DNA of 64,000 bases, taken from positions 114,794-178,793 of the forward strand of contig NZ_RCWA01000007.1 in assembly GCF_018448905.1 (NCBI RefSeq), read 5' to 3'. The notes beneath the pieces are model-generated. The model had not been told where the DNA came from. It did no database searches and worked only from the letters and a program-made list of their open reading frames with translations. Positions 9,291-63,345 of the stretch are shown here, piece after piece. The DNA is from Photorhabdus heterorhabditis (lineage in GTDB: Bacteria > Pseudomonadota > Gammaproteobacteria > Enterobacterales > Enterobacteriaceae). The position numbers and the translations under genes are program-made. Each line of letters starts with the position of its first letter. Within the stretch, counting starts at the first letter, position 1.

Positions 9291-9294
9291 TTCA

Positions 9295-12382: not shown

Positions 12383-12389
12383 CTTGAAA

Positions 12390-13487
12390 CTATTTTTCTC
12401 TTATTCCTTCTATCTCTTCCTGCAACCTGTTCTGTTTTAAATTCCAAGACGAATCTTCCGGCATTTGGACACGAATATCTAAGCGGCAATTCTCTGGAAT
12501 ATCGCAAGATTCTCCATCTTTATAAAAAACACGTTCATCGTTATCATCGATACATTTAAGTCGCCAATTCTGAAAACGTGCTGGTAAATGAGAATGTTGT
12601 CTGTGAAAAGTTTCGATAATAATAGAACCATCAGGTTGAATACGGTTATCGATAAAAATCAACTCTAACCCATTTTTATCTTTTGGTGCTGAAATACCAC
12701 CATGCTCTCCCCATACATCATCAGCATTACAGCCTGAAATATTTGAAATGCGATATACACCCGTTCCCTCTTTAGTGACTTTTGCGCCTTCAGATTCTTC
12801 ATTAGTTGAAAACTCACCATCAGAGTAGAGTTTGACTATCGGTGAGACTCTCTTGAGAAATCCATTAGCATCGAATGCGCTGTTTACATCTTCAATTAAA
12901 ATTCTTTTTTTTCCTTTAAATTTACCATTTTTGTCAAATGCGTATGTATGTATTCCAAACCCTTCTTGACCTCCAGATGTACTGCCGTATTCAAAAGAAA
13001 TTCCTCTTGAGTGTGGAATCCCTGCACTAGGGTGAGCGACATGAATAGCTAAACCACCTAAGTCCGCCCACCCATTTGGACGTAAGAAACCCGACAATGA
13101 CAAATCGCGCAGGGATGGGTCATCACCTAAATTTGCTGCCTTAGATAAGATACAACCAGATGTTTTTGTATTCGTATTTAACCGAACAAATCGATTATCA
13201 GATTCTACTTTGATTTTTTGTTCTAATGCTTTATTTAATTGTGCAGTGATTTTCGTTACATTACCATCATCCAAAACATCACTGCCCGATTCTGTCGCAA
13301 TAAAGTCAGCTACAACAGATGATATGGTTGACGATTGACGCAATGCTTTATTTAACACATGAAGATCAGACCGTTTTAATTCATAAAATCCATCCTGCAA
13401 TTCTGGACTATTTTCATATATATTTTGATCAACTACATTAGCACCAATCTTAATAGCAAAAGCTTTAAAATCATTCTTAATACTCAT
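12390..13487 (-). CDS. Tail-fibre-like protein, Stf-type tip (array copy 4)
   Basis: A 365-residue array member. The shared head (KNDFKAFAIKIGANVVDQ, LRQSSTISSVVADFIATESG) is joined to a different C-terminal half with no collar. It carries a block known from lambdoid/Stf-like side tail fibres: SNISGCNADDVWGEHGGISA, then DKNGLELIFIDNRIQPDGSI and FHRQHSHLPARFQNWRLK. The ATG at 13487 has GAGGATT upstream. The last residues run into an ERIC element eight bases after the stop, so the original 3' end and any chaperone gene may have been lost. Confidence 0.83.
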   Translation of the reverse strand: MSIKNDFKAFAIKIGANVVDQNIYENSPELQDGFYELKRSDLHVLNKALRQSSTISSVVADFIATESGSDVLDDGNVTKITAQLNKALEQKIKVESDNRFVRLNTNTKTSGCILSKAANLGDDPSLRDLSLSGFLRPNGWADLGGLAIHVAHPSAGIPHSRGISFEYGSTSGGQEGFGIHTYAFDKNGKFKGKKRILIEDVNSAFDANGFLKRVSPIVKLYSDGEFSTNEESEGAKVTKEGTGVYRISNISGCNADDVWGEHGGISAPKDKNGLELIFIDNRIQPDGSIIIETFHRQHSHLPARFQNWRLKCIDDNDERVFYKDGESCDIPENCRLDIRVQMPEDSSWNLKQNRLQEEIEGIREK

Positions 13488-13658
13488 ATACAATCCTCAA
13501 GTTAAATAATATTTTAAAAAAACATATTAAACTATTGTGCAAATAACCCATAGTAATTCACACCAGTCATAGTCTTGTTCAGAAAAATAACAATGAAACA
13601 TTCTTATGAATTAGAATGTTAACTATTTTTACATAATTGACTAAAATAGAAAATTCAA
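13488..13658 (-). promoter_or_regulatory. Promoter-leader module of array copy 4
   Basis: TTGAAT (13653-13658), 17-bp spacer, TATGTA (13630-13635), then the shared leader block. The remaining 13659-13832 is AT-rich with no gene. Confidence 0.7.
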
Positions 13659-13832
13659 TATTAAAATACTTCCATTCCCTATCCTATTTCATTTTTTACC
13701 AAAATTTTCCCATTGAAGATTACGCATCGGATCTTTCAATATATAAATAACCAGTTTATTAATTAACCAGAAACAATATAATTTCATTCCTATTCTATAA
13801 AGTAAAATGCGTTTATTTTCACGCTGCAGTAA

Positions 13833-14420
13833 TTAATATCCGATCGCAAAATATCTCACATAATTATTCGTTAACGCATTTGTAGAATTTCTGCACGTTA
13901 CAATAAACTGACTTGCAGAAACAGGTACAGCAGCAACCCCAGATCCAAAATTATAAAAATCAGCATATGTTGCCACAATCTGGAAACAAGCATTAGGAAA
14001 TGGAATTGTGAAATTTCTATAATCACTTATATTCATAGAGCCGTTTGCCTGTCCCCACTGAATAATTATCCCTGTATCACCACACTTCCACCAACCATTT
14101 GCAACCTTATTAGCAGTATTCACATTAAGATTACAGCACTTTGCAATTTTTCGATCTATCACGCTTTTTAATTGTGTGGTTATTTTGGTTACATCACCAT
14201 CATCCAAAACATCACTGCCTGATTCTGTCGCAATAAAATCGGCTACAGCGGATGATATAACCGACGATTGACGCAATGCCTTATTTAATACATGAATATC
14301 AGGCTGTTTGCCTGAATCAAATCCATCCTGCAACTCTGATCTACTTTCATAATAATATTGACTCAATGCATTTGAATTATTATTAATAGAAAAAGCTTTA
14401 AAATCATTCTTTACACTCAT
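13833..14420 (-). CDS. Tail-fibre-like protein, gp53-like tip (array copy 5)
   Basis: The shortest intact array member, 195 residues. The shared head (KNDFKAFSINNNSNALSQYY, LRQSSVISSAVADFIATESG) is followed directly by a compact tip of about 85 residues. The tip has GWWKCGDTGIIIQWGQANG and FPNACFQIVA and ends RYFAIGY. It resembles the C-terminal domain of putative tail-fibre gp53-like proteins (beta-rich trimerising tips). There is no collar and no linker repeat. The same tip type occurs in the pseudogene at 15980-16285. ATG at 14420 with GAGGATT upstream. Confidence 0.82.
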   Translation of the reverse strand: MSVKNDFKAFSINNNSNALSQYYYESRSELQDGFDSGKQPDIHVLNKALRQSSVISSAVADFIATESGSDVLDDGDVTKITTQLKSVIDRKIAKCCNLNVNTANKVANGWWKCGDTGIIIQWGQANGSMNISDYRNFTIPFPNACFQIVATYADFYNFGSGVAAVPVSASQFIVTCRNSTNALTNNYVRYFAIGY

Positions 14421-14600
14421 ATACAATCCTCACGTTAAATAATATTATTTATTTACAAAAAACACATTAAACTACTATGAAAATAACCTATTAAATAATT
14501 CAACCCTGTCATAGGCTAGTTCAAAAAAATGATAATAAAATATTTTTGCAACCAAAATAAGCAACTATTTTTATATAACTATCAATAATAAACAACCCGA
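14421..14600 (-). promoter_or_regulatory. Promoter-leader module of array copy 5
   Basis: TATATA (14572-14577) with a poor -35 (TCGGGT, 14595-14600) at 17 bp. Leader block with ATTATCATTTTTTTGAACTAG conserved. Nothing recognisable in 14601-14828. Confidence 0.55.
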
Positions 14601-14828
14601 CAGATTGTAATCGAAAAATTCAGTAATACTCTATATTTTCCCAAGTCTATTAACTGAGATTTTTCTTTATCACTTTCCATATCATTCATATATAGCCAAA
14701 ATCTTTATTTAAATTCTGGCTATATTCTTAAGGTATTCATCAAGAGATTATTACCTGAATTGGCATCAGGCTAACCAATAAATAGCCACCAGCCAAATAT
14801 ACCCTCAAAATAATAATTTATCATTATC

Positions 14829-15599
14829 TTATACACCTAAATAAATGACAGGTATCATACTGACATTTAACGGGCGATTTTCGTTTGCCGTTGGCACTAC
14901 CTTTGATGCATCAAAAGCGGCGTATGCTGAATATCCATGATTACTATTAGCATTTGTTCCCGCAGCAACTACTGTTGCGGTACTCGTAACACCATAAAAT
15001 GCGCCACTGGTACGAGTAAAAAGCCCATGCGTCCACCACCCCACATCACCTGTAATATTTCTAATCGCATCTCCCTGTATCACACCTGGCTGCAAACCAG
15101 CACGCACAAATACTCCTCGTCCATCAACAAACAGATTAGGAAGGTTAATTTTACCATCACGCAACTTGATTCCCCATGCTGCCTTATATGCATTGGATAA
15201 ATTATTCAATGCCCGACCAACAATTGAATCAATCGCATAAGCAGCACCATTTGCAATATATTCTCCTTTAGCTAAATCTGATGCTGGATGTGCAGATAAA
15301 TAGATATCACCTGAACGTTTAGCACTAACATTTTCCAAAGCCTTTTTTAATTGTGCCGTGAGTTTCGCTACATTACCATCATCCAAAACATCTTCACCAG
15401 ATTGTTCTGCAATAAAATCAGCTAAAACCGATGATATGGTTGATGATTGACGCAATGTCTTATTTAACAAATGAACATGAATAGTACTATTTGGTGCTAA
15501 TCCAGTCTGCAATTCTGGACTGCTTTCATATAAATTTTGACTCACCACATTAGCACCACTCTGAATAGAAAAAGCTTTAAAATCATTTTTTACACTCAT
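14829..15599 (-). CDS. Tail-fibre-like protein, divergent collar/tip (array copy 6)
   Basis: A 256-residue array member with the shared head (KNDFKAFSIQSGANVVSQNL, LRQSSTISSVLADFIAEQSG). The second half differs from the other collars: GDIYLSAHPASDLAKGEYIA, then NLPNLFVDGRGVFVRAG, then GDAIRNITGDVGWW, and an end reading NENRPLNVSMIPVIYLGV. That layout (collar-like loop, GDAIRN-I-G segment, RP-N-ending) is typical of prophage tail-fibre tips. The ATG has GAGGG at suitable spacing. No Tfa remnant is visible after its stop. Confidence 0.83.
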   Translation of the reverse strand: MSVKNDFKAFSIQSGANVVSQNLYESSPELQTGLAPNSTIHVHLLNKTLRQSSTISSVLADFIAEQSGEDVLDDGNVAKLTAQLKKALENVSAKRSGDIYLSAHPASDLAKGEYIANGAAYAIDSIVGRALNNLSNAYKAAWGIKLRDGKINLPNLFVDGRGVFVRAGLQPGVIQGDAIRNITGDVGWWTHGLFTRTSGAFYGVTSTATVVAAGTNANSNHGYSAYAAFDASKVVPTANENRPLNVSMIPVIYLGV

Positions 15600-15777
15600 A
15601 TAAAACCCTCAAATTAAATAATATTATTTATTGACAAAAAACACATCAAACCATTATTAATATAACCCATAACAATTCACGTTAGTCATAGCCTAGTTCA
15701 TAAAAATAATAATAAAACATTCTCATGAGTTAGAATGCCAATTGCTTTTATATAATTATTAAAATCAAAATAATTTT
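15600..15777 (-). promoter_or_regulatory. Promoter-leader module of array copy 6
   Basis: TATATA at 15749-15754 and the shared leader (CATTCTAACTCATGAGAATG, TTATTATTATTTTTATGAAC) are present, but the -35 position reads AAAATT. AT-rich 15778-15979 holds no gene. Confidence 0.5.
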
Positions 15778-15979
15778 ATTTATAAATATCTCAATATATT
15801 ATTATCAAAAAGTAGCATTGGATGAATAAATTAACTATGACATATCACCATCGGACTAAAAATAAATTCAAAGGTCTAAGTTTCGTTGAGTACAGAACTC
15901 AAACTTCAATCTAAAATATCCAGATTCCCAAATTCAATTTAACAATATAAATCACTAACACTTTCACTATAAAAATATA

Positions 15980-16285
15980 TCAATATCCTATTGCAAACCA
16001 AAACGCAGAGATTTCAATCGGGTATGCCCAATAATTAAATTCTGTTACAGATAGTTTGTTCGCAACAATATTATATGATGATTTTATATCAGTTTTATTA
16101 CTTAAGGTTAATAAAACATTTACACAAACATTAGGAAACTGAATAGGAAAATTAACGGGTGTATTATGTCCTGTCCAGTTCACGGTTCCCCACTGATAAA
16201 CCACTCCTGTATCCCCACATTTTCACCAACCATTAATATCCTTACCAGCTGTATTCATATTAACTTTAGTTATTTCATAAATAAT
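15980..16285 (-). pseudogene. Fibre tip remnant, gp53-like, ERIC-truncated with nonsense codon
   Basis: Reads ITKVNMNTAGKDINGW-stop-KCGDTGVVYQWG and on to FWFAIGY, aligning with the tip of array copy 5 (NVNTANKVANGWWKCGDTGI). The second W of GWW is TGA. The entire head is missing; a short ERIC (16286-16370) abuts the 5' edge, and the array promoter survives beyond it at 16485-16513. The chain of an intact promoter, an ERIC and a tip fragment shows a former array copy destroyed by deletion. Confidence 0.8.
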
Positions 16286-16370
16286 ATATACCCTTCATCT
16301 TTCAAGCTGCTGCTTTGTTGGATGCGTTCACTTGCCGCCGCGCTGCAATCTGAAATCTATTGGGTATATT
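16286..16370 (-). repeat. Short ERIC (internal deletion form, about 84 bp)
   Basis: Both ERIC ends are present, but the central palindrome with the CCCCGGGAGC core is missing. Same deletion type as at 18674, 19149 and 21194. Confidence 0.85.
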
Positions 16371-16484
16371 AAATTATTATACGAATGACTTATCTCCATT
16401 CGGGTCAATTAGACGTCTTGATCAGACGTCTAATTTAAAAACAATCAATCAAATATTATTATAATTTAGGATATTAACCACTTT

Positions 16485-16513
16485 TGTATAATTGGTTACA
16501 ATAGGTAATTTAA
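16485..16513 (-). promoter_or_regulatory. Orphan array promoter
   Basis: TTAAAT (16508-16513), 17 bp, TATACA (16485-16490), matching the array promoters. The gene it served is now only the remnant at 15980-16285. Confidence 0.6.
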
Positions 16514-16550
16514 TATTAAAAAGTTATTATCCCCCTCTTTCATTTCTTAC

Positions 16551-16678
16551 TATACCTGTTATCTTTCAAGTTGCTGCTTTATTGGCTGCTTTCACTTACC
16601 CCAGTCACATCGTTATCTATGCTCCTGAGGATACGTTCACTTGCCGCCGCACTGCAATTTGAAATCTATTGGGTATAT
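16551..16678 (-). repeat. ERIC element, full length
   Basis: About 128 bp, TATACCTGTTATCTTTCAAG to GAAATCTATTGGGTATATA, with the core partly degenerate (CTCCTGAGGATACG). Confidence 0.88.
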
Positions 16679-16730
16679 AATTTTTCTATTTCAGGTTATA
16701 GATTGAATCTCTTTCAGTATCCTATTTTCA

Positions 16731-18146
16731 TTATTTCGGCTGCTCCGGCCATTCAATATTGGGTGCTAATGAAACATCAATTCTGCTCAACATCACCCTA
16801 TATTGCTTCCATGCCAACAGATCTGTTTTTTCTTCTTCGGTGGCAATACCTAAATCGACAGCATCTTGTAGTGGCCCGACAAGATTATTAACTTTAGCCA
16901 GTGACTGGAATTTCTCATGTTCTGCTTGCTGTATTAATTCCTCTTTAGTCGGAACATAAGTATTATCAGATTCTATTTCCGTATCCTTCCCAACAACTTT
17001 GTCAGCAGGTTTATTCAACGAGTTATATTCTTGAGCCCAAGGGGTCCATGGATTATCATGGAATTGGCTACGTGTATATATCCGACTGCTGTTATAAACA
17101 AAATAACGTTGAATAACCCCAGCCGCTTTCAATACAATAAGCGAACCGGCAAGTGGTTCAGGATAATTGACGCCATTTTTAGCATGAGCATTATATTCCT
17201 GATAATAAATCCCTGGTGTTTTGTAGTAATCCAGATTCACATTATCACCTAAACCAATCGCCTGCCCACTCAAAATGTCCTGAGAAGAAATAGTGATATC
17301 CGTAGATAAAGATTTTCCATTTACCTTACGGATTCCGGCAATATATCGAGAATCAGATTCTATTTTTGTATATGCGCCAATCTCCTCTGCCGAAGGTTTA
17401 TTCAGAGTGTTATATTCTCTAGCCCAAGGGGTCCATGGATTATCATGAAACTGGCTACGTGTATATACCCGACTACTGTTATAAACAAAATAACGTTGAA
17501 CGATCCCAGCCGCTTTCAACACAACAAGAGAACCCGCGAGCGGTTCAGGGTAATTAAGGCCACTTTTGGCATGGGCATCATACTCTTGGTGATAAATTCC
17601 TGGTGTTTTATAGCTACTTAAATCCGCCTTATCACCTAAACTAATCGCCAGCCCACCCAAAATATCCTGGGAAGTAATAGTGATATCCTCAGACAGTGCT
17701 TTCCCATTAATTTTTCGGGTATTAGGTATTTTGGCATTAATATTTTCAAGTAATGAATTTACTATTTCCTGAACCAACTTTTGTGTAACAGCTACTGTGG
17801 TACTATTACCCAACACATCCGTAAGCTGAACAACCCCTTTTTGTGTTAATGACGCATTGGGAACTTCTGTTGTGATTTTTTGTTTTAAAGCTTTATTTAA
17901 TTGCTCGGTAAGTTTCGCTATATCACCATCATCCAGAACATTATCGCCAGATTGTGTTGCGATAAAATTAGCTATTACAGATGATATTGTTGATGATTGA
18001 CGTAATACTTTGTTTAATAGATTAATAGGAATATTATCTGGTGGAAACCCAGTCTGCAAGCTCTGGTCTTTCTCATATTTATCTTGACTCACTACATTAG
18101 CATCATTACTAATAGAAAAAGCCTTAAAATTATTCTTGGCACTCAT
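16731..18146 (-). CDS. Tail-fibre-like protein with two knob repeats and fused Tfa C-terminus (array copy 7)
   Basis: The longest array member, 471 residues. The shared head (FKAFSISNDANVVSQDKY) and LTQKGVVQLTDVLGNSTTVA come first. Two tandem repeats of about 115 residues follow, each with KINGKALSEDIT-type start, YYKTPGIYYQEYNAHAKNG, NYPEPLAGSL and SQFHDNPWTPWAQEYN. This is the pyocin-knob-like domain seen in R-pyocin and prophage fibres. The last about 70 residues (LQDAVDLGIATEEEKTDLLA to SLAPNIEWPEQPK) are the C-terminus of a Tfa chaperone, so fibre and chaperone ends are fused in one frame. ATG at 18146 with a weak GGGG upstream. Confidence 0.83.
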   Translation of the reverse strand: MSAKNNFKAFSISNDANVVSQDKYEKDQSLQTGFPPDNIPINLLNKVLRQSSTISSVIANFIATQSGDNVLDDGDIAKLTEQLNKALKQKITTEVPNASLTQKGVVQLTDVLGNSTTVAVTQKLVQEIVNSLLENINAKIPNTRKINGKALSEDITITSQDILGGLAISLGDKADLSSYKTPGIYHQEYDAHAKSGLNYPEPLAGSLVVLKAAGIVQRYFVYNSSRVYTRSQFHDNPWTPWAREYNTLNKPSAEEIGAYTKIESDSRYIAGIRKVNGKSLSTDITISSQDILSGQAIGLGDNVNLDYYKTPGIYYQEYNAHAKNGVNYPEPLAGSLIVLKAAGVIQRYFVYNSSRIYTRSQFHDNPWTPWAQEYNSLNKPADKVVGKDTEIESDNTYVPTKEELIQQAEHEKFQSLAKVNNLVGPLQDAVDLGIATEEEKTDLLAWKQYRVMLSRIDVSLAPNIEWPEQPK

Positions 18147-53033: not shown

Positions 53034-54548
53034 ATGAGAAAAATCTTTTTAGCTACACTTATTACAGGGATTGTGTCAGCAAGTTGTTCCGCACAAGCGC
53101 TTCCCGAAAATAACAACGAGCACATTGCTGATCTGCAAGACAATACCAGCAACGAAGCTCCGCTATTAAAATCTACGGACCCGGGCGCTGAACGATTTAA
53201 GCATGTGGGTAAACTAAGCGGTCGCGGCCTGTGTACCGCAACACTTATTGCCGGTTCAGAAACCCCTGATGCCAATCAACAAGCACTTATTCTTTCCGCA
53301 GGCCATTGTTTTGATTCTTCATTAGATACTAATGAAGTAGTGATTGACCAACCTGTAGGCCCTGGTTGGACATACACACCAAATTACTTTATTGACTTAA
53401 TTAATAAACACCAACCTGTTGATGTTGATAGAGTTTTATACGCAACAATGAAAGGCGGTGACCTTGCAGTTTTCAGACTTAAAGCAACTTATGGTGAGTT
53501 GGCAAATCGCGGAATACTGCCGGTGACGTTACACAAAGATTATGAAGCAGTAGCAAGTCATCCCATTGAACTGGCTCACATTCCGGTCAATGGTGTAGAT
53601 GGTGATAAACGTTATCTACGCTATTCAGCTTGCGACATTACTGGAAAAGCCTCGCTTGTATATGAAGGTATCTGGGCTTGGTCTCCGGCTGTTTCTGTTA
53701 ATTGCGCCGGGGTTGCGGGAGGCACTTCTGGTTCACCGGTTATATTGAAAGATCAATCCAAGATAATTGGTGTATTAAATACCACCGTTGACCGAAGTTA
53801 CTCGGGTTGCGGTCTTAATCGTCCGTGTGAATTTATTATCGATCACAGTTTCTCTCGTACTGGCGCCAGTTACTATATTCCTATTGATAAAATTGCACAT
53901 GCATTTACCCCTGATGGAAAACTGGATTTAAGTAAATTTGATGATGGAAAAGGGATCACTATTAACGCTAACGGTCCACTAATTACGAAGGGCACAGTTG
54001 ACAACAAACCTACCACTTGGAATTTACGTCTTGAGGAAAAGGGGTTTGATAAGATTCGCTATAAGGGAGGGCTTGCGAGTAATGTTGATTGTTCAGATCC
54101 TAAAGGATACAGCAAACCTATTTCAGTCACTACCCAACCGCTGGAAAAACTTGCCGTTCCTTCCAATGAAGGGATTTATACCATGTGTGTTATTGGGCAA
54201 CATTCTGCAAATAAACTCTGGCAGAGTACATCTAATGCATCAATAAAATTACGTGAAATTGACAATACTCCTCCATCAACAAAACCAGAGATAAGATTAA
54301 TTTTTGAAGCAGATGACCGATGGGTTGTTAACCCTATTTTTAGTCCGTGGGAAATTGTTGATTTACGTATAAAATCAGGGCCAGTGAAATCTACAAAATG
54401 TGATGATTACACAGGTTACTCTATTTATAGAAGAATACCGATCTCACTTATGAAGAAAGATGCCCCAATACGTTTTTGTGTATATGGCTTAGATCAAGCG
54501 GGTAACAAAGGCCCAATATCCTTTAATGACTTTAGCGATAAGAAATAA
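53034..54548 (+). CDS. Secreted trypsin-like serine protease
   Basis: 504 residues. A Sec signal peptide (MRKIFLATLITGIVSASCSA, cleavage probably after QA at about 22-23) is followed by a chymotrypsin-fold domain. The catalytic triad is histidine in LILSAGHCFDSS, aspartate in MKGGDLAVFRLKA and serine in AGVAGGTSGSPVILKDQS. Extra cysteines (GLCTATL, SACDIT, CAGVAG, GCGLNRPCEF) suggest disulfides. After about residue 300 two repeats of a beta-rich domain follow. GAGG precedes the ATG, and a terminator follows. Likely an extracellular enzyme; substrate unknown. Confidence 0.85.
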   Translation: MRKIFLATLITGIVSASCSAQALPENNNEHIADLQDNTSNEAPLLKSTDPGAERFKHVGKLSGRGLCTATLIAGSETPDANQQALILSAGHCFDSSLDTNEVVIDQPVGPGWTYTPNYFIDLINKHQPVDVDRVLYATMKGGDLAVFRLKATYGELANRGILPVTLHKDYEAVASHPIELAHIPVNGVDGDKRYLRYSACDITGKASLVYEGIWAWSPAVSVNCAGVAGGTSGSPVILKDQSKIIGVLNTTVDRSYSGCGLNRPCEFIIDHSFSRTGASYYIPIDKIAHAFTPDGKLDLSKFDDGKGITINANGPLITKGTVDNKPTTWNLRLEEKGFDKIRYKGGLASNVDCSDPKGYSKPISVTTQPLEKLAVPSNEGIYTMCVIGQHSANKLWQSTSNASIKLREIDNTPPSTKPEIRLIFEADDRWVVNPIFSPWEIVDLRIKSGPVKSTKCDDYTGYSIYRRIPISLMKKDAPIRFCVYGLDQAGNKGPISFNDFSDKK

Positions 54549-54946: not shown

Positions 54947-55076
54947 TATATACCCAATAGATTTCAGTTTGCATCACGGCGGCAAGGGAGCGGAATCCCC
55001 GGGAGCATAGAGAACTTTGTGGCTGGGGTAAGTGAACGCAGCCAAAAAAGCAGCGGCTTGAAAGATGAAGGGTATA
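54947..55076 (+). repeat. ERIC element, full length
   Basis: TATACCCAATAGATTTCAG to GATGAAGGGTATA with the core GGAATCCCCGGGAGC. From 55077 to 55440 no gene is seen. Confidence 0.9.
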
Positions 55077-55440
55077 GTTACCAAATTCTATATAAGATTC
55101 CAGATAACTCTCCAATTTATTTAGTTATAAAAAATTTCCACGATTAAAATACGCAAGGTAGAAAAATACAACAACTGATTTAGTTCATAATCAATCTATT
55201 TCTATCATGATTGAGGAAGATATGTACCTTACTAACATATGTGAACTATTTTGACTATTAACAGAAACGGGTTGTTTTACGACCAACAATTGTTCACAAT
55301 TAGACCACTCACGATACTATCTCCGATAATCGTCATTTTGGTCATTTATTAATACATGGATGCAGCCGATTTTTACCATTTTTATTTCCATTTAATGCTT
55401 TAGCACACTGCTTCGACATAAGTTATTGCTAGTTTATAGA

Positions 55441-55466
55441 TTCTGTAAAACCTTGGTTTAGTGGAA
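55441..55466 (+). repeat. Left DNA-invertase-like crossover site
   Basis: 26 bp: half-site TTCTGTAAAACC, core TT, half-site GGTTTAGTGGAA. The two halves are imperfect inverted repeats around a 2-bp core, the architecture of Gin/Hin/Pin sites. It encodes LGLVE at the start of the fibre-tip frame. Its inverted partner is at 61588-61613. Confidence 0.65.
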
Positions 55467-56525
55467 ACGGTGAATCTGGCGAAAAGTGCTGTGCCGAGTA
55501 GCCGGAAAATTAATGGCAAGGCGTTGAATGGGGATGTCAGTTTAAGTGCCGGGGATGTTGGGGCTTTTCCTAGACTGAGATCAATTGATGAAATACCAAC
55601 ACTGGGATATAACGGCCCGTTCCGTGGTGGAGCATCTGTCAATTATGCAAAAGGAGTTAGCGTTGGTGATAGCGACTACGGACAGATCTGGGTTGATTCT
55701 AGCGGGAGACTATTTGCGCAATTTTCAAACAATAATGGCGCAAAGCATGGCGGTGAATGTGTTTATATGGACGATATTACACCTATTGAGCAAAAAGCTA
55801 ATAATGCGGTGCCGAGTAGTCGGAAAATTAATGGGAAGGCGTTGAGTGGGGATGTCAGTTTAAGTGCCGGGGATGTGGGAGCGTTTTCTGGATTTATTTT
55901 TGTCAACAGTATCCCGACACGTGGTTATGTTGGGGTCTGGGGCGGGTCTAAGAACGCTGGCTGGGTTAAAGGACTTAATATTGGTACAGTAGGTGGCGAT
56001 GTGGGTCAGTTATACATTGATCCCAACGGAAATCTTCATGCATATTTTTTAAATAACAACGGGAGTGTAAACGGCGGTATTGTCACTACTCACCCTGTCG
56101 GCTCCCCCATTCCATGGCCGAAACCAAATCCTCCATCGGATTACCTTACGTGCAATGGTCAAACGTTTAATAAATCCTTATACCCAAAATTAGCAGAGGT
56201 TTATCCTGTCGGTAGAGTACCTGATTTGCGCGGTGAATTTATCCGTGGTTGGGATGATGGGCGCGGTGTTGATCTAGGGCGTGTATGCGGGTCATGGCAG
56301 GGGGACTCAATTCGTAATATTACCGGCAATTTTGGTAATCCAACAACAGAAAGCGGTGGTAGCGCATCTGGTGCATTCAGTTACACATATCGACCGGGTG
56401 GGCGTGCGCAGGGCGCAGGAGGTGGTTCTTTATCATTTACATTTGACGCATCACGTGTCGTCCCAACAGCTAACGAAAATAGACCCCGCAATATCGCATT
56501 TAACTACATAGTGAGAGCAGCATAA
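55461..56525 (+). CDS. Headless tail-fibre tip (invertible cassette, left arm)
   Basis: 354 residues from a GTG inside the crossover site; no ribosome binding site, so probably expressed only if fused to a fibre head. Two repeats of about 105 residues begin SSRKINGKALNGDVSLSAGD (second copy LSGDVSLSAGD). A collar domain (HPVGSPIPWPKPNPPSDYLT, VPDLRGEFIRGWDDGRGVDL) and a tip with GDSIRNITGNFG follow, ending NENRPRNIAFNYIVRAA. The frame upstream of the site stops immediately (TAA), and no N-terminal domain is nearby. Stop overlaps the Tfa start (TAATG). Confidence 0.8.
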   Translation: METVNLAKSAVPSSRKINGKALNGDVSLSAGDVGAFPRLRSIDEIPTLGYNGPFRGGASVNYAKGVSVGDSDYGQIWVDSSGRLFAQFSNNNGAKHGGECVYMDDITPIEQKANNAVPSSRKINGKALSGDVSLSAGDVGAFSGFIFVNSIPTRGYVGVWGGSKNAGWVKGLNIGTVGGDVGQLYIDPNGNLHAYFLNNNGSVNGGIVTTHPVGSPIPWPKPNPPSDYLTCNGQTFNKSLYPKLAEVYPVGRVPDLRGEFIRGWDDGRGVDLGRVCGSWQGDSIRNITGNFGNPTTESGGSASGAFSYTYRPGGRAQGAGGGSLSFTFDASRVVPTANENRPRNIAFNYIVRAA

Positions 56526-57151
56526 TGACAGAACAAAAATATTCTTTAGAACCGGAAACAGCAATATTAGGTAAGAATGGATTAGCCACTCAAGCAGGTT
56601 GGATAAAGGTTTATCACACTAATCAGATGACAAGAGAATTTACCAATGCTGATATGGAATATCTCATGCTGGGTGTCAGTGTATCAGCAGGCGCCTATCC
56701 AGATGCGCCCGAACTCCCTCAATCCCATGATGTGGCTGTTCGTCGCAGTGAAGATAAACATTATTGGGAAATCGTGCCTGACTACCGTGGAAAAATGGCT
56801 TATGACACACAAAACCGTCAAAAATGTGAAATCACTGAGCTGGGTGAATTGCCAGAAACATTGACATTCAAGCAGCCGGTCACTGATTTTGATACCTGGG
56901 ATGGAGAAAAATGGGTAACAGATACTAAAGCCCAAAAAGCCAGTCAAATTGAACAGGCAGAACAGCAACGTTCGGCATTGAGTCAGAATGCGAATGAAAC
57001 GGTTGCATTGCTGCAAGACACCGTTGACTTAGACATGGCCACTGAAGCTGAAAAAGTAGCTCTACAGACATGGAAGAAATACAGAGTGATGTTGAGCCGG
57101 GTTGATATTTCCCAAGCTCCCAATATTGAATGGCCGGAGCAGCCGAAATAA
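56525..57151 (+). CDS. tfa: Tail-fibre assembly chaperone Tfa (left arm)
   Basis: 208 residues of the caudoviral tail-fibre assembly family, which helps fold and trimerise the matching fibre tip. N-terminus MTEQKYSLEPETAILGKNGL; REFTNADMEYLMLGVSVSAG; AVRRSEDKHYWEIVPDYRGK; a helical segment; and a C-terminus ISQAPNIEWPEQPK. It is translationally coupled to the fibre tip. Very similar to the right-arm copy at 60275-60901; the tip-specific region near the middle differs most. Confidence 0.9.
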   Translation: MTEQKYSLEPETAILGKNGLATQAGWIKVYHTNQMTREFTNADMEYLMLGVSVSAGAYPDAPELPQSHDVAVRRSEDKHYWEIVPDYRGKMAYDTQNRQKCEITELGELPETLTFKQPVTDFDTWDGEKWVTDTKAQKASQIEQAEQQRSALSQNANETVALLQDTVDLDMATEAEKVALQTWKKYRVMLSRVDISQAPNIEWPEQPK

Positions 57152-57444
57152 ACTCCGGATCATACATGAACTGTACCTTAAAATGCGGAATATCCAACTG
57201 ATAAAGGTGTAGTTCCTATAACGAAATTACAATACTGAATTTAAGGAATAAATAGAATTTCAAAGGGTGAAAAACTTTATTCTTTCCTTCTCAGGGGATA
57301 ATACTACAACTGTAAATCAATATTATCATTTGCAATTGTACATAATCCCCTTTTTTCATCATAAACTACTCAGCATGTACTGGATGCTAATAAATGAGGG
57401 GCGTTTCCCCTCATTCCATACTATGAGCTTATATGTAAAGAATT

Positions 57445-58140
57445 CTATTTTTTGGCTACGCCAATTATAATGTAGTTCCATTTTTTAGGAACTATTTTTG
57501 AAAATAGAAATCGGTCAAAAAAATTTAATATTTTTCTTTGTTTTTCTGTTCTTCCAAAACAGGAAATAAATCCTGTAGTGATATATTCAACACTTGAGAA
57601 TTGATGCAAAAACTCATTCATATCGTCTATTGTTACATATCTCCATTCATCTCCCCATTGGATAAACTTAGATCTTAATATCTTATGTGCAGGAGAAGCT
57701 GATAGATTTTCAGTAAACCAATATTCGCCTCCTTTTCTTAAGGATTTGTAGATTTCTGATATGGCAATTTTTTGATTTTCAGCATTATTATTACGCCCTA
57801 TACCGCCGATAACTGATTTAGAAATCACAATATCTAATTCATTTTCATATGGTATGTCTAGCGCATTTATATCTTTATATGTAATGAAGTTACTAATATT
57901 ATGGTTTTTGTGTTTTTGGTAGGCTTTTTTATTTGGGCCACCGAGATCTGAGCAAATTACTTTCGCGCCATTTAGTCCGGCCCATAATGACAACCCACCA
58001 TTCCGGCTGCCGATTTCTAAAACCTTAGAATTTTCTAAGTCAATATTTCCTTTTAAAAGCCAAAAGCACAAGCACTTAGACCAGCTGCTAATATCCCATT
58101 CAATGATATCGTTTAAAGTAGAGCGTGAAATATTTTTCAT
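57445..58140 (-). CDS. Class I SAM-dependent methyltransferase
   Basis: 231 residues. Motif I is VLEIGSRNGGLSLWAGLNGA with the acidic motif II VICSDLGGP. DINALDIPYENELDIVISKS and YKSLRKGGEYWFTENL are later methyltransferase motifs. The substrate is unknown; the neighbouring sugar transferase suggests surface-glycan modification. The gene is very AT-rich and lies inside the putative invertible segment, transcribed toward the left Tfa gene. The 293-bp convergent gap (57152-57444) shows nothing else. Confidence 0.82.
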   Translation of the reverse strand: MKNISRSTLNDIIEWDISSWSKCLCFWLLKGNIDLENSKVLEIGSRNGGLSLWAGLNGAKVICSDLGGPNKKAYQKHKNHNISNFITYKDINALDIPYENELDIVISKSVIGGIGRNNNAENQKIAISEIYKSLRKGGEYWFTENLSASPAHKILRSKFIQWGDEWRYVTIDDMNEFLHQFSSVEYITTGFISCFGRTEKQRKILNFFDRFLFSKIVPKKWNYIIIGVAKK

Positions 58141-58868
58141 TAGATTACACCTAACGTTGATTTATGTCGGGATAATTCCCGATATGAAGGATATTAAGAT
58201 AGAATTGAAGTTCAGAGAGCAATACATCATCCCTATAGGAGAAATAAAATAAGAACTCCATAAATGTAATCTTACTTAGCAATAAGAAATCGAGGGATGT
58301 GGTAAGTGCATAGATTATATGGATTTTTCTCATTTGTTGTTATCAATAGGAAGTCATAACAGTAGTAGAAATTAGTTTCGTTTTCTAAAAACAAAAAATT
58401 GAGATCTGGTCAAGTTCCTTATTAGTACTATATGGTGTATCCTTTTGTTACAGTATTTATAACCACCTAATATCTCAGTAAAGCAGGGTAATGTAAACAG
58501 GAAAGTTCTAAATTTCTCTTAGTAACTTAAGTATTAATTACGAAAAAACACGATAATAGTACATGGTATAGTAAACAAGACGTTTATTAACTCATCCTCT
58601 CCTGATTTTCAGCAACTAATAGAACAGTGTATTGAAGCTCTTTTATATTGATAGAAGTATTCTGGTTTATAAAGATACCAGATTATTCTTATTCACATGA
58701 CGAAAAATAATCAGTATAGTATCGATAGAAAATTTGGCTGAATGAAAAAATGGAATCTCAGTTTTTCTTGTTTTTTTGAGAGTTAAACTACTTTCTACTA
58801 CTACATGATATATTGTTGATATATAAATATGAAAACTATGAAAAATCACCTAATCCAAACTGTTACCA
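58141..58868. other. AT-rich gap, no convincing gene
   Basis: Two minus-strand 60-codon frames (58151-58333 and 58667-58849) lack ribosome binding sites and family resemblance. No RNA or repeat is seen. The region likely carries divergent promoters for the methyltransferase and the glycosyltransferase side. Confidence 0.4.
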
Positions 58869-59064
58869 GTTGCCGCACTCTTTATCTTTTGCCTTTTAGC
58901 TCACATAGCTTTGGGTTATTGTTTAAAAATAGGGTATGTACTCGCTGTATTCTTTATTTTTCTATTGCTAAACAAGGCGGATAAAATTTATAGAGTTCTT
59001 CTTGTCATTCTTGGTATAGCTCTCATTTATGATTCATTCTTTATGGAGGTAAAATCATCATGAA
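58869..59064 (+). pseudogene. N-terminal remnant of a multi-pass membrane protein
   Basis: One frame reads KLLPVAALFIFCLLAHIALG, YCLKIGYVLAVFFIFLLLNK, ADKIYRVLLVILGIALIYDS and stops at TGA overlapping the glycosyltransferase start. This strongly hydrophobic, positively bracketed text resembles the first helices of an inner-membrane enzyme such as a phosphoethanolamine transferase. The start region is out of frame. Probably a truncated gene; identity is uncertain. Confidence 0.4.
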
Positions 59065-60130
59065 AAAAATAATTATCGTAGGTTATGAGCTTAGTGGTTT
59101 TGGTGGCACAGAGACTGTTTGTCAGAAGTGTGTATCTTTACTCTCCAAAAACAATGCAGATGTAGATATTAGTTTTATCTTTTTCAAAGAAAATAAGAAT
59201 GCCTCTAATGACGATTGGCTAAAAGGAATAAAGTTTAAACGTATCTTTTCGGAAATCAGGAATCCAACACTTCGCCGAATTCATTTTGCGTTTCAATTTT
59301 CAAGGTACATTAAGCAAGAGAATCCTGATTTGATTATCGCCATTTCTACACGAGGTTGTTACATATCCAACTTAGCTAGGAAAATTTCATTCACAAAAAT
59401 ACCTATATTCTCTTGGGTCCACCTTTCCCTATATTCCGCGTATAAAGCAATATTTACACTGAAAGCAGATTACCACTTGTCTATTAGTACTGGTAATACC
59501 AATTACCTGATTAATATGGGAGTTCCTCATAATAAAATACATACGATTTTTAACCCAATATCAAGAACACCAATAACTATTACTCGTCCTAAAAATATAT
59601 CGAGATTTATCTATGTAGGAAGAATCGTTGCAAACAAGGGGAAAAATTTGCAAAGTATGTTCCATGCTCTTTCACAAATTAAAGGAGACTGGGAATTACA
59701 TATCTTGGGATCAGGAAATGATGTGAGTATTCTACAATCATTAGCAGTTGATTTAAATATAGAACAAAAAATTTTATGGCATGGCTGGCAAGTAAATCCT
59801 TGGGACTACATTATCAATAATATAAAAGAAGTAACCTCGCTATTACTTACATCAATACATGAAGGTTTGCCAATGGTACTTGGTGAAGCTAATTCCTATG
59901 GCATTTATTGTGTCAGTTCTGACTGCAAAACAGGTCCATCAGATATTATTCAAAACTCTATGAATGGAACTCTATATCCTGTTGATAAACCTGATGTATT
60001 GGTAAATCTATTACAAGATATTGTTAACGGAAAACCACTACCTAACAGTATTGATATAAAAAATACGATAGAAAAATTCTATGATGATAATTATTTGAGC
60101 AGAATTGAATCTGCACTGAATATTTCTTAA
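59060..60130 (+). CDS. WaaB/RfaB-like glycosyltransferase (GT4)
   Basis: 356 residues resembling the LPS 1,6-galactosyltransferase WaaB: GYELSGFGGTETVCQK at the N-terminus, PIFSWVHLSLYSAYKAIF, ADYHLSISTG, FIYVGRIVANKGKNLQSM, WELHILGSGND, ILWHGWQVNPWDYI. The E-x7-E equivalent is in SIHEGLPMVLGEANSYGIYC, followed by SSDCKTGPSDIIQNSMNGTL. GGAGG precedes the ATG. Probably adds a hexose to LPS core or O-antigen, acceptor unknown. It lies between the two convergent fibre-tip/Tfa arms, and is AT-rich. 60131-60274 shows nothing. Confidence 0.85.
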   Translation: MKKIIIVGYELSGFGGTETVCQKCVSLLSKNNADVDISFIFFKENKNASNDDWLKGIKFKRIFSEIRNPTLRRIHFAFQFSRYIKQENPDLIIAISTRGCYISNLARKISFTKIPIFSWVHLSLYSAYKAIFTLKADYHLSISTGNTNYLINMGVPHNKIHTIFNPISRTPITITRPKNISRFIYVGRIVANKGKNLQSMFHALSQIKGDWELHILGSGNDVSILQSLAVDLNIEQKILWHGWQVNPWDYIINNIKEVTSLLLTSIHEGLPMVLGEANSYGIYCVSSDCKTGPSDIIQNSMNGTLYPVDKPDVLVNLLQDIVNGKPLPNSIDIKNTIEKFYDDNYLSRIESALNIS

Positions 60131-60274
60131 ATACTAGGGCTTAATTAACACTTTTTCAGTTCCCTATGTTTAAAACTTTTTTATCAGAAAACAATGAAAA
60201 ATCAAGATGATTCCAGATTAGTACTAAACTGTCTTACTATTGTCATCGGGCTGCATAAGCAGCCCTTGTTGTTA

Positions 60275-60901
60275 TCATTCTGGTATCTCAGGCCATTTAA
60301 TATTAGGGGCTAATGAAACATCAACCCGACTCAGTAAGACCACATACTTTTTCCATTCAGGCAACAGTGCCTGTTCTTCTTCCGATGCCAATTCAGCATC
60401 AACAGCATATTGGAGCAACGTGATGGTTTCATTAGCTTGTTTGCTCAATGTGTCTCGCAATTGTTCTGCCTGCTCAATCTCACTGGCTTTTATTGCTGCT
60501 TCGTCAGTTACCCATTTCGAGCCATCCCATCGGTCAAAGTGAGTAACGGGCTGTTTGAACGTCAGGTTTTCGGGTAATTCACCCAGCTCAGTAATTTCTT
60601 GCGGCAAACGAGTTTGTGTGTTGTAAGCTGTTTTTCCGCGGTAATCAGGCACGATTTCCCAACGGCATTTATCTTCACTGCGACGAACAGCCACACCATG
60701 GGATTGAGGGAGTTCGGGCGCATCGGGATAAGCACCGGCTGATACACTGACACCCAGCATGAGATATTCCATATCAGCGTTGGTGAATTCTCTTGTCATC
60801 TGATTAGTGTGATAAACCTTTATCCAACCTGCTTGATTGGCTAATCCATCTTTACCCAATACGGCTGTTTCATGTTCTAAAGAGTATTTCTGTTCTGTCA
60901 T
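60275..60901 (-). CDS. tfa: Tail-fibre assembly chaperone Tfa (right arm)
   Basis: 208 residues, paralogue of the left-arm Tfa: MTEQKYSLEHETAVLGKDGL, REFTNADMEYLMLGVSVSAG, ENLTFKQPVTHFDRWDGSKW, ending VSLAPNIKWPEIPE. The first 130 residues are almost identical to the left arm; the rest diverges, suggesting recombination between arms. It starts in TAATG overlap with the right-arm tip. It is complete, so the chaperones are retained here although those of the 8-18 kb array have decayed. Confidence 0.9.
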   Translation of the reverse strand: MTEQKYSLEHETAVLGKDGLANQAGWIKVYHTNQMTREFTNADMEYLMLGVSVSAGAYPDAPELPQSHGVAVRRSEDKCRWEIVPDYRGKTAYNTQTRLPQEITELGELPENLTFKQPVTHFDRWDGSKWVTDEAAIKASEIEQAEQLRDTLSKQANETITLLQYAVDAELASEEEQALLPEWKKYVVLLSRVDVSLAPNIKWPEIPE

Positions 60902-61593
60902 TATGCTGCTCTCACTATGTAGTTAAATGCGATATTGCGGGGTCTATTTTCGTTAGCAGTAGGTACAGCACGTGATGCGTTAAACACTAAATTAGTATTA
61001 GCTGTTTCAGAATCAAATCTGCGAGTGTTTGATCGCCATGACATTGTATTTTTTCCTAAAAACACGCCTGTGGCTTCTGTTACTGCGTCAAATCCATAAT
61101 TTCCGCCGAACGACACATCACCAGTAATATTTCTAATAGCATCTCCTTGCCAGGTTCCACACACACGCCCAGGATCAACGCCCCGACCATCATCCCAACC
61201 TCGAATAAACTCGCCTCTTAAGTCGGGTACCCTACCGGCAGGATAAGCTTCCGCTAGCTTCGGATATAAAGATTTATTAAATGTTTGGCCGTTGCACGTA
61301 AGGTAACCGACGGGCGTATAGCGGTGGGGGTATGGCATTGGGACGCCGACAGGTACAATCAAGCTACCTGCTTCATCTTTTGTATATGCCCCCACATCTC
61401 CCGCACTGGGTTTATTATTCGGACTATAAACACGTAAGCCGGACTCATAAATGTATCTTTTCGCCCAGATGTCTTGACTAGATACAACATCTTTGCCTTC
61501 TCCGGATTTTACATATCCAGTCGCATCCACATTCCCGTTTACAATCCCACCCGATTTTGGAAACGCGTTCTTAGCCAAATTCATCGTTTCCAC
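60901..61593 (-). CDS. Headless tail-fibre tip (invertible cassette, right arm)
   Basis: 230 residues from GTG in the crossover site (or ATG at 61584). NLAKNAFPKSGGIVNGNVDA, then SGEGKDVVSSQDIWAKRYIY and a collar domain (VGVPMPYPHRYTPVGYLTCN, VPDLRGEFIRGWDDGRGVDP). The tip has GDAIRNITGDVSFGG, differing from the left arm, and ends NENRPRNIAFNYIVRAA. No head domain and no ribosome binding site. The frame continues upstream only as VTENIG and then stops. As a mirror of the left arm, it is the alternative tip of a two-state cassette, or a stored spare. Confidence 0.8.
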   Translation of the reverse strand: METMNLAKNAFPKSGGIVNGNVDATGYVKSGEGKDVVSSQDIWAKRYIYESGLRVYSPNNKPSAGDVGAYTKDEAGSLIVPVGVPMPYPHRYTPVGYLTCNGQTFNKSLYPKLAEAYPAGRVPDLRGEFIRGWDDGRGVDPGRVCGTWQGDAIRNITGDVSFGGNYGFDAVTEATGVFLGKNTMSWRSNTRRFDSETANTNLVFNASRAVPTANENRPRNIAFNYIVRAA

Positions 61594-61613
61594 TAAACCA
61601 ATGTTTTCTGTAA
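61588..61613 (-). repeat. Right DNA-invertase-like crossover site (inverted)
   Basis: On the minus strand TTACAGAAAACA, core TT, GGTTTAGTGGAA. It equals the left site at 21 of 26 positions, including the whole inner half-site GGTTTAGTGGAA and the TT core, in opposite orientation. Confidence 0.65.
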
Positions 61614-61712
61614 CCGATTAACTCACCGCAATTCTTGCCAGGGCAGCGCTTTAAAGCATTAAACGAAGCCGGATACGATAAAAATCGGGTCGATTTACGT
61701 GTCAATAAATAA
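61614..61712 (+). pseudogene. C-terminal fragment of an unknown gene cut at the crossover site
   Basis: Open frame of 32 codons beginning exactly after the crossover site: NSPQFLPGQRFKALNEAGYD, then KNRVDLRVNK and TAA. It reads like real protein but has no start. I do not recognise it. 61713-62017 is gene-free. Confidence 0.4.
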
Positions 61713-62050
61713 CCAAAATGAAGATTTAGCAAGAAATGCATTCACTATGAATAGATTGCGAACAAGTTTTGGCTAATAAATTAGCGGGTTTGCATGACTC
61801 ATTTGCTCAAATCTTCAAGATCCAAATCGAGTTGGTAAGTATGATATAGAACTATTGACTCTTTCCTGATTCGCTAAATTCTACCCATGGGCTTTAACTT
61901 CATAGGATTAACGCTATTGGAACAATAGGTATCGGCTTCTGTTTTTGTTGCAGGTCATTTCATGATGGTTTCTGTACATTTTTTCACAAAATTAGCCTTT
62001 GAGGTAATTTAGCTTAAATGCTAATATTAATTTCAGGGGGAGGAAAAAAA

Positions 62051-62380
62051 GTGTTTAGAGTTATCTATCATGATGAAGCAGTCAAGGAAGCCGATAACTT
62101 ACCGAAACTTATAAAAGTGAAGTATGATCGGCTAGTTAAAAAATTAGAAGAAAACCCTCGGCTCCTGCGGGAACCGAACACAAAGCCGCTTGGTGATGGG
62201 CTTTACGAGATCCGCACAATGGGCGGTGACATAGCTCGCGGCATTTGGGTTTATGAAGTGGGTAGCAAGATCTATATGCTTCGCATTTTCATTAAGAAAA
62301 CCCAACAGACGCCAAAAAGCGAAATCGAGCTAGCTAAGCGCAGACTGGAGGAAATCAAACATGAAATTAAAAACCCATGA
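62051..62380 (+). CDS. RelE/HigB-type toxin (Gp49-like family)
   Basis: 109 residues from the GTG at 62051, which has GGGGGAGG upstream; the ATG at 62018 has no such site. FRVIYHDEAVKEADNLPKLI, a basic helix, DGLYEIRTMGGDIARGIWVY and YMLRIFIKKTQQTPKSEIEL match the phage-derived Gp49-like/HigB toxin family. The C-terminus ends in KRRLEEIKHEIKNP. It overlaps the antitoxin gene by 20 bp, indicating coupling. Probably inhibits translation by mRNA cleavage; intact length suggests activity. Confidence 0.88.
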   Translation: MFRVIYHDEAVKEADNLPKLIKVKYDRLVKKLEENPRLLREPNTKPLGDGLYEIRTMGGDIARGIWVYEVGSKIYMLRIFIKKTQQTPKSEIELAKRRLEEIKHEIKNP

Positions 62381-62639
62381 CGAATTACATGCTGAATGGA
62401 TGAAAGATCCGGAATACCGGGCAGCATACGAAGCAGAAGAACGAAAAGAAAAATTACAAGCGTTGCTAGCTGAATGGCGTAATAATGCAGGTATTACACG
62501 CGCTCAAGTGGCAGAACGTATGGGAGTTAAGCCACCGACAGTTTCTCGCATGGAAAGCAATATTAACAAAGCCAGCATAGATACTCTTGCGCGTTATGCC
62601 CGAGCCTGTGGTATCGAAAAACCCCAGATAACGCTTTAA
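62361..62639 (+). CDS. HigA-type antitoxin (XRE family)
   Basis: 92 residues. The N-terminal LKTHDELHAEWMKDPEYRAA binds toxin in related pairs; the helix-turn-helix is ITRAQVAERMGVKPPTVSRM, and the end reads KASIDTLARYARACGIEKPQ. Complete. It is followed by a hairpin (62671-62691). A strongly decayed fusion of the same toxin and antitoxin reading lies at 63273-63345. Confidence 0.9.
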   Translation: MKLKTHDELHAEWMKDPEYRAAYEAEERKEKLQALLAEWRNNAGITRAQVAERMGVKPPTVSRMESNINKASIDTLARYARACGIEKPQITL

Positions 62640-62670
62640 CTTTCGCCCGATCTACCTGATATCAAGAAAA

Positions 62671-62691
62671 TGGCGGGGATTTAATCCCCGC
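62671..62691 (+). terminator. Hairpin after the toxin-antitoxin operon
   Basis: GGCGGGGAT / ATCCCCGCC stem with a tiny loop. No T-run, so a weak terminator or a regulatory hairpin. Confidence 0.55.
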
Positions 62692-62708
62692 CGACTTTGG
62701 AGGTGATT

Positions 62709-63066
62709 ATGTTTTTCTCAGTAGGTGTTGAATTTCCGAAAGATGAAAACACCGCGTATGGTTTGGTTATTCCTGCGTTGTGTACCGAAGATTATGGTTG
62801 CGAACAGTAGCGGTGTTGAACAAATCCAAGACCCTGGCTATCTGGTCTATACAAAAAACGCAGAATATCAATATATTGACAGTTGGTTTGTTATTGATGT
62901 TGATTTATCTGAATTTTCCGGAAATTAGCAGCGTATTAATATCTCATTACCCGATATACCCGATACACTCATTCAGCGTATTGATAATCGAGTTAAAGAA
63001 AGCCCAACACAATATCGAGATAGAAGCCACTTTTTAGCGGAAGCAGCAAGACATGAACTTAGGTAG
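62709..63066 (+). pseudogene. HicB-family antitoxin, broken
   Basis: Opens with GGAGG and an ATG: MFFSVGVEFPKDENTAYGLV, ALCTEDYGCEQ, stop. A shifted frame continues GVEQIQDPGYLVYTKNAEYQ and DSWFVIDVDLSEFSGN, stop, then QRINISLPD and QRIDNRVKESPTQYRDRSHF, ending AARHEL. Together these cover the HicB partial RNase-H fold and its ribbon/HTH tail, with an internal deletion causing a frameshift plus one nonsense codon. No hicA toxin is adjacent. Confidence 0.8.
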
Positions 63067-63144
63067 CACTATGGTGCACGGATGCACCATAGTGCTCAAA
63101 ATCATTCAACTGACGTCGTATGGATGCAAAGTCCGAGTTAAGTT

Positions 63145-63272
63145 ATATACTCGTCATCTTTCAAGTTGCTTCTTTGTTGGCTGCACTCACTCACCCCGGT
63201 CACATAGTTATCTATGCTCCCGGGGATTCGCTCCCTTGCCGCCGCGATACATCTTGAAATCCATAGGGTATA
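63145..63272 (-). repeat. ERIC element, full length
   Basis: TATACTCGTCATCTTTCAAG to ATCCATAGGGTATA, with the core GCTCCCGGGGATTCGC. Confidence 0.92.
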
Positions 63273-63345
63273 AGCGCACTTTTTTATTAAGAAAACTCAA
63301 AAGACACTAACTGTTTCTCATATGGAAAGTAATTTAAAAGTTTTC
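63273..63345 (+). pseudogene. Fused toxin-antitoxin remnant
   Basis: Reads AHFFIKKTQKT then LTVSHMESNLKVF. The first part matches the toxin C-terminus (FIKKTQQT), the second the antitoxin helix (PTVSRMESNIN), so about 80 intervening codons are deleted. It directly follows an ERIC. Confidence 0.65.

Follow-up and report, generated by a model that had tools for sequence, protein, structure and literature searches.

What purpose could be served by two inverted crossover sites of the serine-invertase kind that each open into a phage-type fibre tip, in a stretch of DNA that contains neither a fibre head nor an invertase? This question is posed by a region of Photorhabdus heterorhabditis (genome G000) comprising 64,000 nucleotides, referred to here as the window, which represents the last 64 kb of contig C7 and ends at the contig end. 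An earlier note, prepared from the letters of the window, had proposed a 6.17-kb invertible segment (55441–61613) bearing two convergent arms, each made of a fibre tip and its Tfa chaperone. A comparison extended to 13 Photorhabdus genomes makes it quite probable that the window is the head-distal half of a four-site, multi-inversion locus of the Gin/Hin type, which would diversify the fibre of a contractile-tail (tailocin-like) module.

Crossover site 1 (55441–55466, plus strand, TTCTGTAAAACCTTGGTTTAGTGGAA) and crossover site 2 (61588–61613, minus strand, TTACAGAAAACATTGGTTTAGTGGAA) are both headless, 26 bp long and centered on a TT core. They are found in inverted orientation, agree at 21 of 26 bases, and have in common, besides the core, the 12-bp half GGTTTAGTGGAA. 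Each is an imperfect palindrome with matches at 8 of the 12 half-site positions, and the pair thus has the two inverted 26-bp palindromes with the same 2-bp core that characterize Din segments; their assignment to the Gin/Hin type follows the general features of that family. R64-type shufflons, in contrast, rely on the tyrosine recombinase Rci and on repeats of their own type. With a site pattern composed after sites 1 and 2 had been seen, the window yields two matches at no more than three mismatches, compared to 0.04 expected, a number reached in none of 100 shuffles. The 5.05-Mb genome yields nine matches at no more than two mismatches, sites 1 and 2 included, and the reversed-pattern control none.

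Arm A consists of a fibre-tip frame with a Collar domain (55461–56525, plus strand) followed by a Tfa chaperone gene (56525–57151, plus strand), and arm B of an equivalent frame (60901–61593, minus strand) and chaperone gene (60275–60901, minus strand). Matches to PF07484 and PF02413 in both pairs (55461–57151 and 60275–61593) confirm the convergent arrangement. The reading frame encoding LGLVE or IGLVE enters both arms in the codon phase that it also has in an intact fibre gene, located on contig C43. Re-measurement and the controls above therefore uphold what the earlier note had said of the sites, namely their mutual similarity, their imperfect symmetry and their position at the start of the fibre frames. 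One in-frame stop is present inside the outer half of site 1 and another, in the frame of site 2, just before that site (9 bp outward), so that the headless arms should be silent unless a GTG of their own is used.

The location of the missing head becomes clear from other genomes. A trypsin-like protease gene at the left edge of the locus, outside the switch (53034–54548, plus strand; Pfam Trypsin_2 at 27.2 bits, just below the cut-off of 27.6), is matched in all 13 genomes of the genus. In eight of them, the contig with the protease also carries, 13–22 kb away, a fibre head belonging to a single family (alignment A2): P. asymbiotica DSM 15149 (G002), P. bodei (G005), P. khanii (G006), G007, P. 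luminescens DSM 3368 (G008), P. namnaonensis (G009), P. noenieputensis (G010), and the complete genome of P. thracensis DSM 15199 (G012). In G007, G008, G010, and G012 the locus is contiguous: the protease is followed by a first pair of sites (1 and 2) enclosing arms, then by a spacer, a second pair (3 and 4) likewise enclosing arms, and finally the head with the baseplate and tail genes. The orientation of the sites alternates (1+, 2−, 3+, 4−) and every site opens into a tip or a tip with Tfa. In G000 this locus is split, with sites 1 and 2 on C7 and sites 3 and 4, the head, and the baseplate genes on C43, where the intact fibre gene comprises head, site 4, and tip, the site lying inside the gene. 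Site 3 is identical to site 2 of the window, and the sequences outward of these two sites form inverted repeats, 93–94% identical over about 172 bp.

The earlier note was thus right that no head adjoins either site in the window, but a biological reason for this absence is rejected, since the head lies at the far end of the locus, on another contig, and the assembly is broken in between. The search that it had advised, for heads ending in the same kind of site, found matching sites inside intact fibre genes on C43, as well as on C26 and C16. Its 6.17-kb element stands as a fibre-tip segment with sites of the Gin/Hin/Cin/Pin type, though not as a stand-alone one, being bounded by sites 1 and 2 of four. 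A head ending in a site belongs to the locus (site 4 on C43) and not to the window pair alone, and more than two alternating sites serving one head, as in Min-like systems, are present in G000 only across two contigs. Two further fibre genes of G000, on C16 (locus L015) and C29 (L016), have sites with a TC core, which should not recombine with TT sites. In G009 (L087, L088) the tail module points away from the protease; one and the same arm start occurs there both at site 1 and at the head.

The protein families recognized on C43 are those of a sheath (DUF3383; PHROG tail sheath), a structural protein of KPP10 type, presumably the tail tube, a tail assembly chaperone, a tape-measure-like protein, the hub, the spike, and the baseplate. 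Among the 14 distinct C43 proteins scanned (20 scans), none was named as capsid, portal, or terminase; three have their best PHROGs in the 'head and packaging' category, listed there as structural proteins. The genes on the far side of the module are, judged by eye, of housekeeping appearance. A piece resembling an IS30 transposase, again by eye, is present at the left end of C43 (L014, 1–486), with 95 bp identical to the sequence that follows the tip in another strain locus, L154; this piece is a likely reason why C7 and C43 were not joined.

The point of exchange was located by comparing half-sites over the 20 sites of the five genomes that have all four, 11 of the 31 listed sites being left out as belonging to genomes without the full set. 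In the outer sequence (−30 to −1), sites at the same position in different genomes are more alike than sites at different positions (effect 0.25, p = 0.0005), and so are the outer half-sites (0.12, p = 0.0015), but no position effect was detected for the inner half-sites of these 20 sites (0.002, p = 0.48). The genome effects are 0.06 for the outer half (p = 0.0015) and 0.09 for the inner half (p = 0.0005). Since the outer side tracks position and the inner side does not, these comparisons show outward sequence belonging to the place and inward sequence being interchangeable, with exchange, as judged from sequence, at the 2-bp core. Of the 34 head loci examined (22 viral loci of at least 65% identity among the best 80 of 238, and 12 of 20 further loci), 28 have a site next to the head, three end at the head, and three have no site there. 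The outer half of this site is TTATAAAAAACC in 26 of the 28 cases and the inner half varies. The sameness of inner half-sites within a genome is not used here as proof, since inversion by itself does not lead to it and since G010 and G012 lack it.

As the earlier note had remarked, no invertase gene is present in the window, which stops at the contig end, and none adjoins the segment; the genome search for a Gin/Pin-type serine recombinase that it had proposed led instead to contig C26. G000 encodes two PF00239 proteins, on C26 and C19, of which the former is its only full-length Gin-type invertase. The best structure matches of the C26 enzyme are the DNA-invertase entries 4m6f (E 7e-83) and 3uj3 (E 2e-81), both presumably Gin. 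Its gene lies 62 bp from a site and 4.4 kb from a P2-type tail gene. The enzyme is preserved at 94% identity or more in 12 of the 13 genomes (with one internal stop in the copy of G011), and in 11 of these 12 it lies on one contig with the P2-type gene, within about 5 kb of it, the two being on different contigs in G005. G007, a single-contig genome, has its invertase at 26 kb and its cassette locus at 3.50–3.53 Mb. No full-length invertase was found in the cassette locus in the 22 stretches compared, the sole match being that of C26 itself. A Gin-type gene located at a separate P2-type locus would therefore act on the cassette sites in trans.

The headless sites are accompanied by what appear to be decayed starts of such a gene. 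One of them, recognized by multiple alignment and translation, is placed beside site 1 (55270–55379, ends approximate, minus strand) and covers about codons 1–37, with a stop after about 20 codons; the other, beside site 2 (61675–61776, plus strand), has a stop after 33 codons and no ATG (BLASTN 74% over 90 bp, E 1.2e-10). The flank of site 1 alone gives no BLASTN match to the invertase gene. Outer flanks of 17 of 24 headless sites align to the invertase gene start by BLASTN at E < 1e-3, in a comparison that took in one of the ten further invertase loci (L101), and all three G000 flanks that were translated contain early stops. Five-prime invertase fragments also occur at other places of the P2-type locus (L003, 1753–1857 and 13708–13788).

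The enhancer of the Hin/hix system lies in the intact hin gene. In the intact C26 gene, which reads away from its site, a pair of Fis-like 15-mers, scored with a Fis consensus, is present 48 bp apart at codons 9–30, and the same pair tops nine of ten other invertase loci, where the genes are near-identical. The multiple alignment covers the whole pair in 23 of the 24 headless flanks, and in these the pair is found at the aligned place, with members 48–49 bp apart and 86–151 bp outward of the site. In the window, the distal and proximal members are located at 55292–55306 and 55340–55354 in the site 1 flank (48 bp apart, the proximal one 86 bp from the site), and the proximal and distal ones at 61700–61714 and 61749–61763 in the site 2 flank (86 bp from the site and 49 bp apart). 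This aligned-position test replaces a scan of 55301–61700, which gave nothing above shuffles in a range that cut off both window pairs; Fisher's combined value over flanks is not used because the flanks are related.

It may be asked whether these remnants are anything but functionless debris, left when arms were acquired as blocks of invertase, site, and tip. Such an origin has a considerable chance of being the right one, although we put it below even. The distal Fis-like site is only moderately conserved, and the whole stretch from remnant to site is itself fairly conserved; shared descent or conversion could explain the pair. Debris does not, however, readily account for the constancy of its place in all flanks but one, nor for the invariance of G1 and C15 of the distal site, together with A8 and T9, in 23 of 23 flanks. 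Identity between the two flank types (with G006_s3 left out) also peaks at both Fis-like sites, being 0.49 outward of the pair, 0.67 in the distal site, 0.54 in the gap, 0.83 in the proximal site, and then 0.62 and 0.52. Furthermore, all 21 five-prime fragments counted stop at codons 31–58, just past the pair, the count being made without two longer fragments that reach codons 70 and 75 and are 83–84% identical. Selection for Fis binding at the remnant pairs is likely on these grounds, though not proven, and the decayed gene start beside each headless site is a candidate enhancer.

A mechanism for the four-site locus can be outlined from these elements. The Gin-type invertase of the P2-type tail locus would bind the cassette sites in trans, pair two inverted ones on a Fis-bound enhancer, which the decayed gene start beside each headless site would supply locally, and invert the DNA between them. 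When enumerated, the inversions 1/2, 3/4, 1/4, and 2/3 reach 16 arrangements, spacer orientation included; an arm at site 3 or site 1 reaches the head in one inversion and an arm at site 2 in two, which puts arm A one step from the head and arm B two. Inversion 3/4 or 1/4 would thus place a new tip behind the head, and inversion 1/2, that of the window pair, would only re-order the reserve and leave the expressed fibre as it is, since the arm at site 2 needs two inversions. A switched tip would change which bacteria are bound by the particle.

Between the two arms, the window carries a methyltransferase-like gene (57445–58140, minus strand), which moves with arm A in G002, and a family-4 glycosyltransferase gene accompanying arm B (59060–60130, plus strand). 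Arms and spacers of the loci examined hold glycosyltransferases (GT2, GT4, GT25), methyltransferases, Mig-14, and a sulfatase-family protein. Such sugar and methyl transferases, adjacent to the tips, may alter the surface of the producer itself. A self-protection role of such glycosyltransferases has been proposed for Xenorhabdus in the excerpted text of PMC13280938; we can speculate, by analogy, that those of the Photorhabdus cargo might play the same part. Positions 58471–59030 of the window match the start of a longer G002 gene (480 aa), of which only the start is aligned and which resembles, by eye, the sulfatase-family protein of G008.

Differences in orientation are found between strains. 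Locus L153 of P. luminescens DSM 3368 and L169 from an IMG/VR contig are collinear at 93–94% up to the head site, differ by the inversion of 2,360 bp (83%) between sites, and are again collinear outside site 3 (78%). Among the arm matches above the thresholds used, the head arm of L137 (P. akhurstii) reappears in L162, L165, and L166 at the far end, in reverse orientation (89–91%). Arm A together with the methyltransferase gene (55447 to 58595, in four pieces) matches a stretch adjoining the head of G002 at 81–88%. The block outward of site 2, which carries a toxin–antitoxin pair, is reversed in G002 relative to the protease, an outcome to be expected of a site 2–site 3 inversion and also of homologous recombination within the 172-bp repeats. 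A relative of the pair itself (Gp49 and HTH, 62018–62639) adjoins site 3 of G002 in reverse orientation, its toxin gene being only partly matched.

Several observations weigh against a working four-site switch. The junction of C7 and C43 is unassembled in G000. Of the two orientations that the earlier note had hoped to see, both are seen for the segment between sites 3 and 4, and between strains only; inversion of the window pair was not seen. In L154, the closest and same-species-like strain, 3.6 kb of tail genes are 99.4% identical to those of G000, yet the head tip differs and has no counterpart in G000, and of the window segment the record matches no more than a 31-bp stub. Since the tip is absent from G000, an inversion leading directly from one of these strains to the other is not supported, and arms are also gained or lost by other routes. 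A relative of arm B with its glycosyltransferase in P. australis DSM 17609 (G003) adjoins the head without being fused to it. In G012 the locus is present, yet no invertase exceeds 50% identity and the P2-type gene is only 66% identical; together with the interrupted copy of G011, this suggests that some loci may be frozen. Confidence is also lowered by further Gin-type copies, 81–87% identical, in five genomes. The outer half-sites carry, besides the position effect, the smaller genome effect given above. As regards the Fis-like pair, the rank tests are modest (12 of 208 and 10 of 209, best pair start at 225; single sites 41 and 9 of 257), the pair of the intact gene scores 32 while 30 shuffles of the 1.7-kb region reach a maximum of 32 with a mean of 28.1, and the proximal site overlaps the serine-motif codons.

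Part of this evidence would suit a relic, that is, a formerly working switch, now frozen, with the present variety arising from homologous recombination between conserved stubs or flanks and from horizontal transfer of arms. We consider this unlikely. It would accommodate the tip of L154, the separation of the G003 head from its nearest arm, and the lack of a close invertase in G012, and the inverted repeats outside sites 2 and 3 could indeed recombine homologously. It is at odds with a positional signal that ends at the 2-bp core and not at the end of the conserved stub, with the inner halves of G000, all identical in four intact sites, with the retention of the enzyme in 12 of 13 genomes (one copy with the stop), and with a whole-segment inversion between collinear flanks that ends near the sites. 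The proposal that the locus is served by a recombinase other than the C26 enzyme, or by an invertase in the gap between C7 and C43, is improbable to a similar degree, for although G000 has no assembled spacer between site 2 and site 3 and the 81–87% copies lie outside the P2-type locus (G003, G006, G008, G010, G011), no full-length invertase match was obtained in the cassette stretches from other genomes, four of which include the assembled spacer, and the only other PF00239 protein of G000 is 35% identical to the C26 enzyme.

Other elements surround the segment. At 62660–63121, a relative of a HicB-like antitoxin gene aligns in two pieces and seems broken; in other genomes this gene has an open frame in the vicinity of such sites. 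Copies of a dispersed element roughly 130 bp long lie at 54947–55081, at 63144–63275, and elsewhere in the window, and the element has many matches per genome across the genus. More tip-like and Tfa-like pieces and weak fibre-head matches (64–70% over 130–300 bp) are found at 8000–18100, where no crossover site is nearby at no more than three mismatches.

A multi-site layout is known from the Min system of p15B, and fibre-gene inversion in carotovoricin Er was reportedly described by Nguyen in 2001. As in p15B Min and the C-segment of P1, a Din-family invertase would join one or another of several tip arms of the Photorhabdus locus to a single fibre head; in those two the invertase lies inside the locus, whereas here it lies outside and the arms carry surface-modifying cargo. 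The C-segment of P1 is treated in PMC6906374. Excerpts of PMC12529663 report that PinQ of prophage Qin inverts the P segment of e14 in trans, so such enzymes can act on another prophage; the published e14 repeat has TTGGTTT in common with the window sites, but e14 differs in having two sites, one segment, and its own PinE besides PinQ. In Salmonella, hixL and the proximal Fis site are separated by about 100 bp according to the portion consulted of PMC3798978, and here 86–87 bp separate the site from the proximal Fis-like site predicted by sequence; Hin/hix, however, switches a promoter. Inversion in carotovoricin Er alters the target range of this tail-like bacteriocin, as cited in parts of PMC10598620 and PMC13280938, and its locus differs in that it is said in the latter to contain an invertase gene.

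The closest parallel is the xenorhabdicin locus of Xenorhabdus, in which, as stated in the extracts of a 2026 study (PMC13280938), headless extra fibre genes are inverted between close strains, the route of recombination being left open. These extracts likewise place invertases elsewhere in the genome and none in the tail locus, with glycosyltransferases and Mig-14 in the variable region, but concern an R-tailocin of P2 type and give no mechanism. The Photorhabdus locus belongs to another contractile-tail module and adds named 26-bp sites, the four-site order, the signature of crossover at the core, and the invertase remnants. Searches among open-licence PMC papers listed none that treats this locus in Photorhabdus or describes remnants of invertase genes as enhancers. 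Fibre inversion by a Din-family enzyme and its action in trans are known already; what is new is the combination of a four-site locus that encodes no enzyme for itself with enhancer-like remnants close to the sites.

A broader and more tentative proposal, to which we give somewhat under an even chance, is that of a genome-wide shuffler, in which one invertase of the P2-type locus would serve at least one further tail locus in trans, with the headless sites retaining only the gene start that holds the Fis enhancer. If so, a gene reduced to its own cis-regulator would make distant orphan sites switchable and would couple the choice of tip to surface-modifying enzymes, a possible example of an invertase gene of which nothing but the enhancer has survived. 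As regards the question left open in the sister genus Xenorhabdus, names can now be given to the sites and the crossover point, to an enzyme that is probably responsible, and to a candidate for the local enhancer, and a genus of insect pathogens and nematode symbionts is seen to hold a reserve set of fibre tips at a single conserved location.

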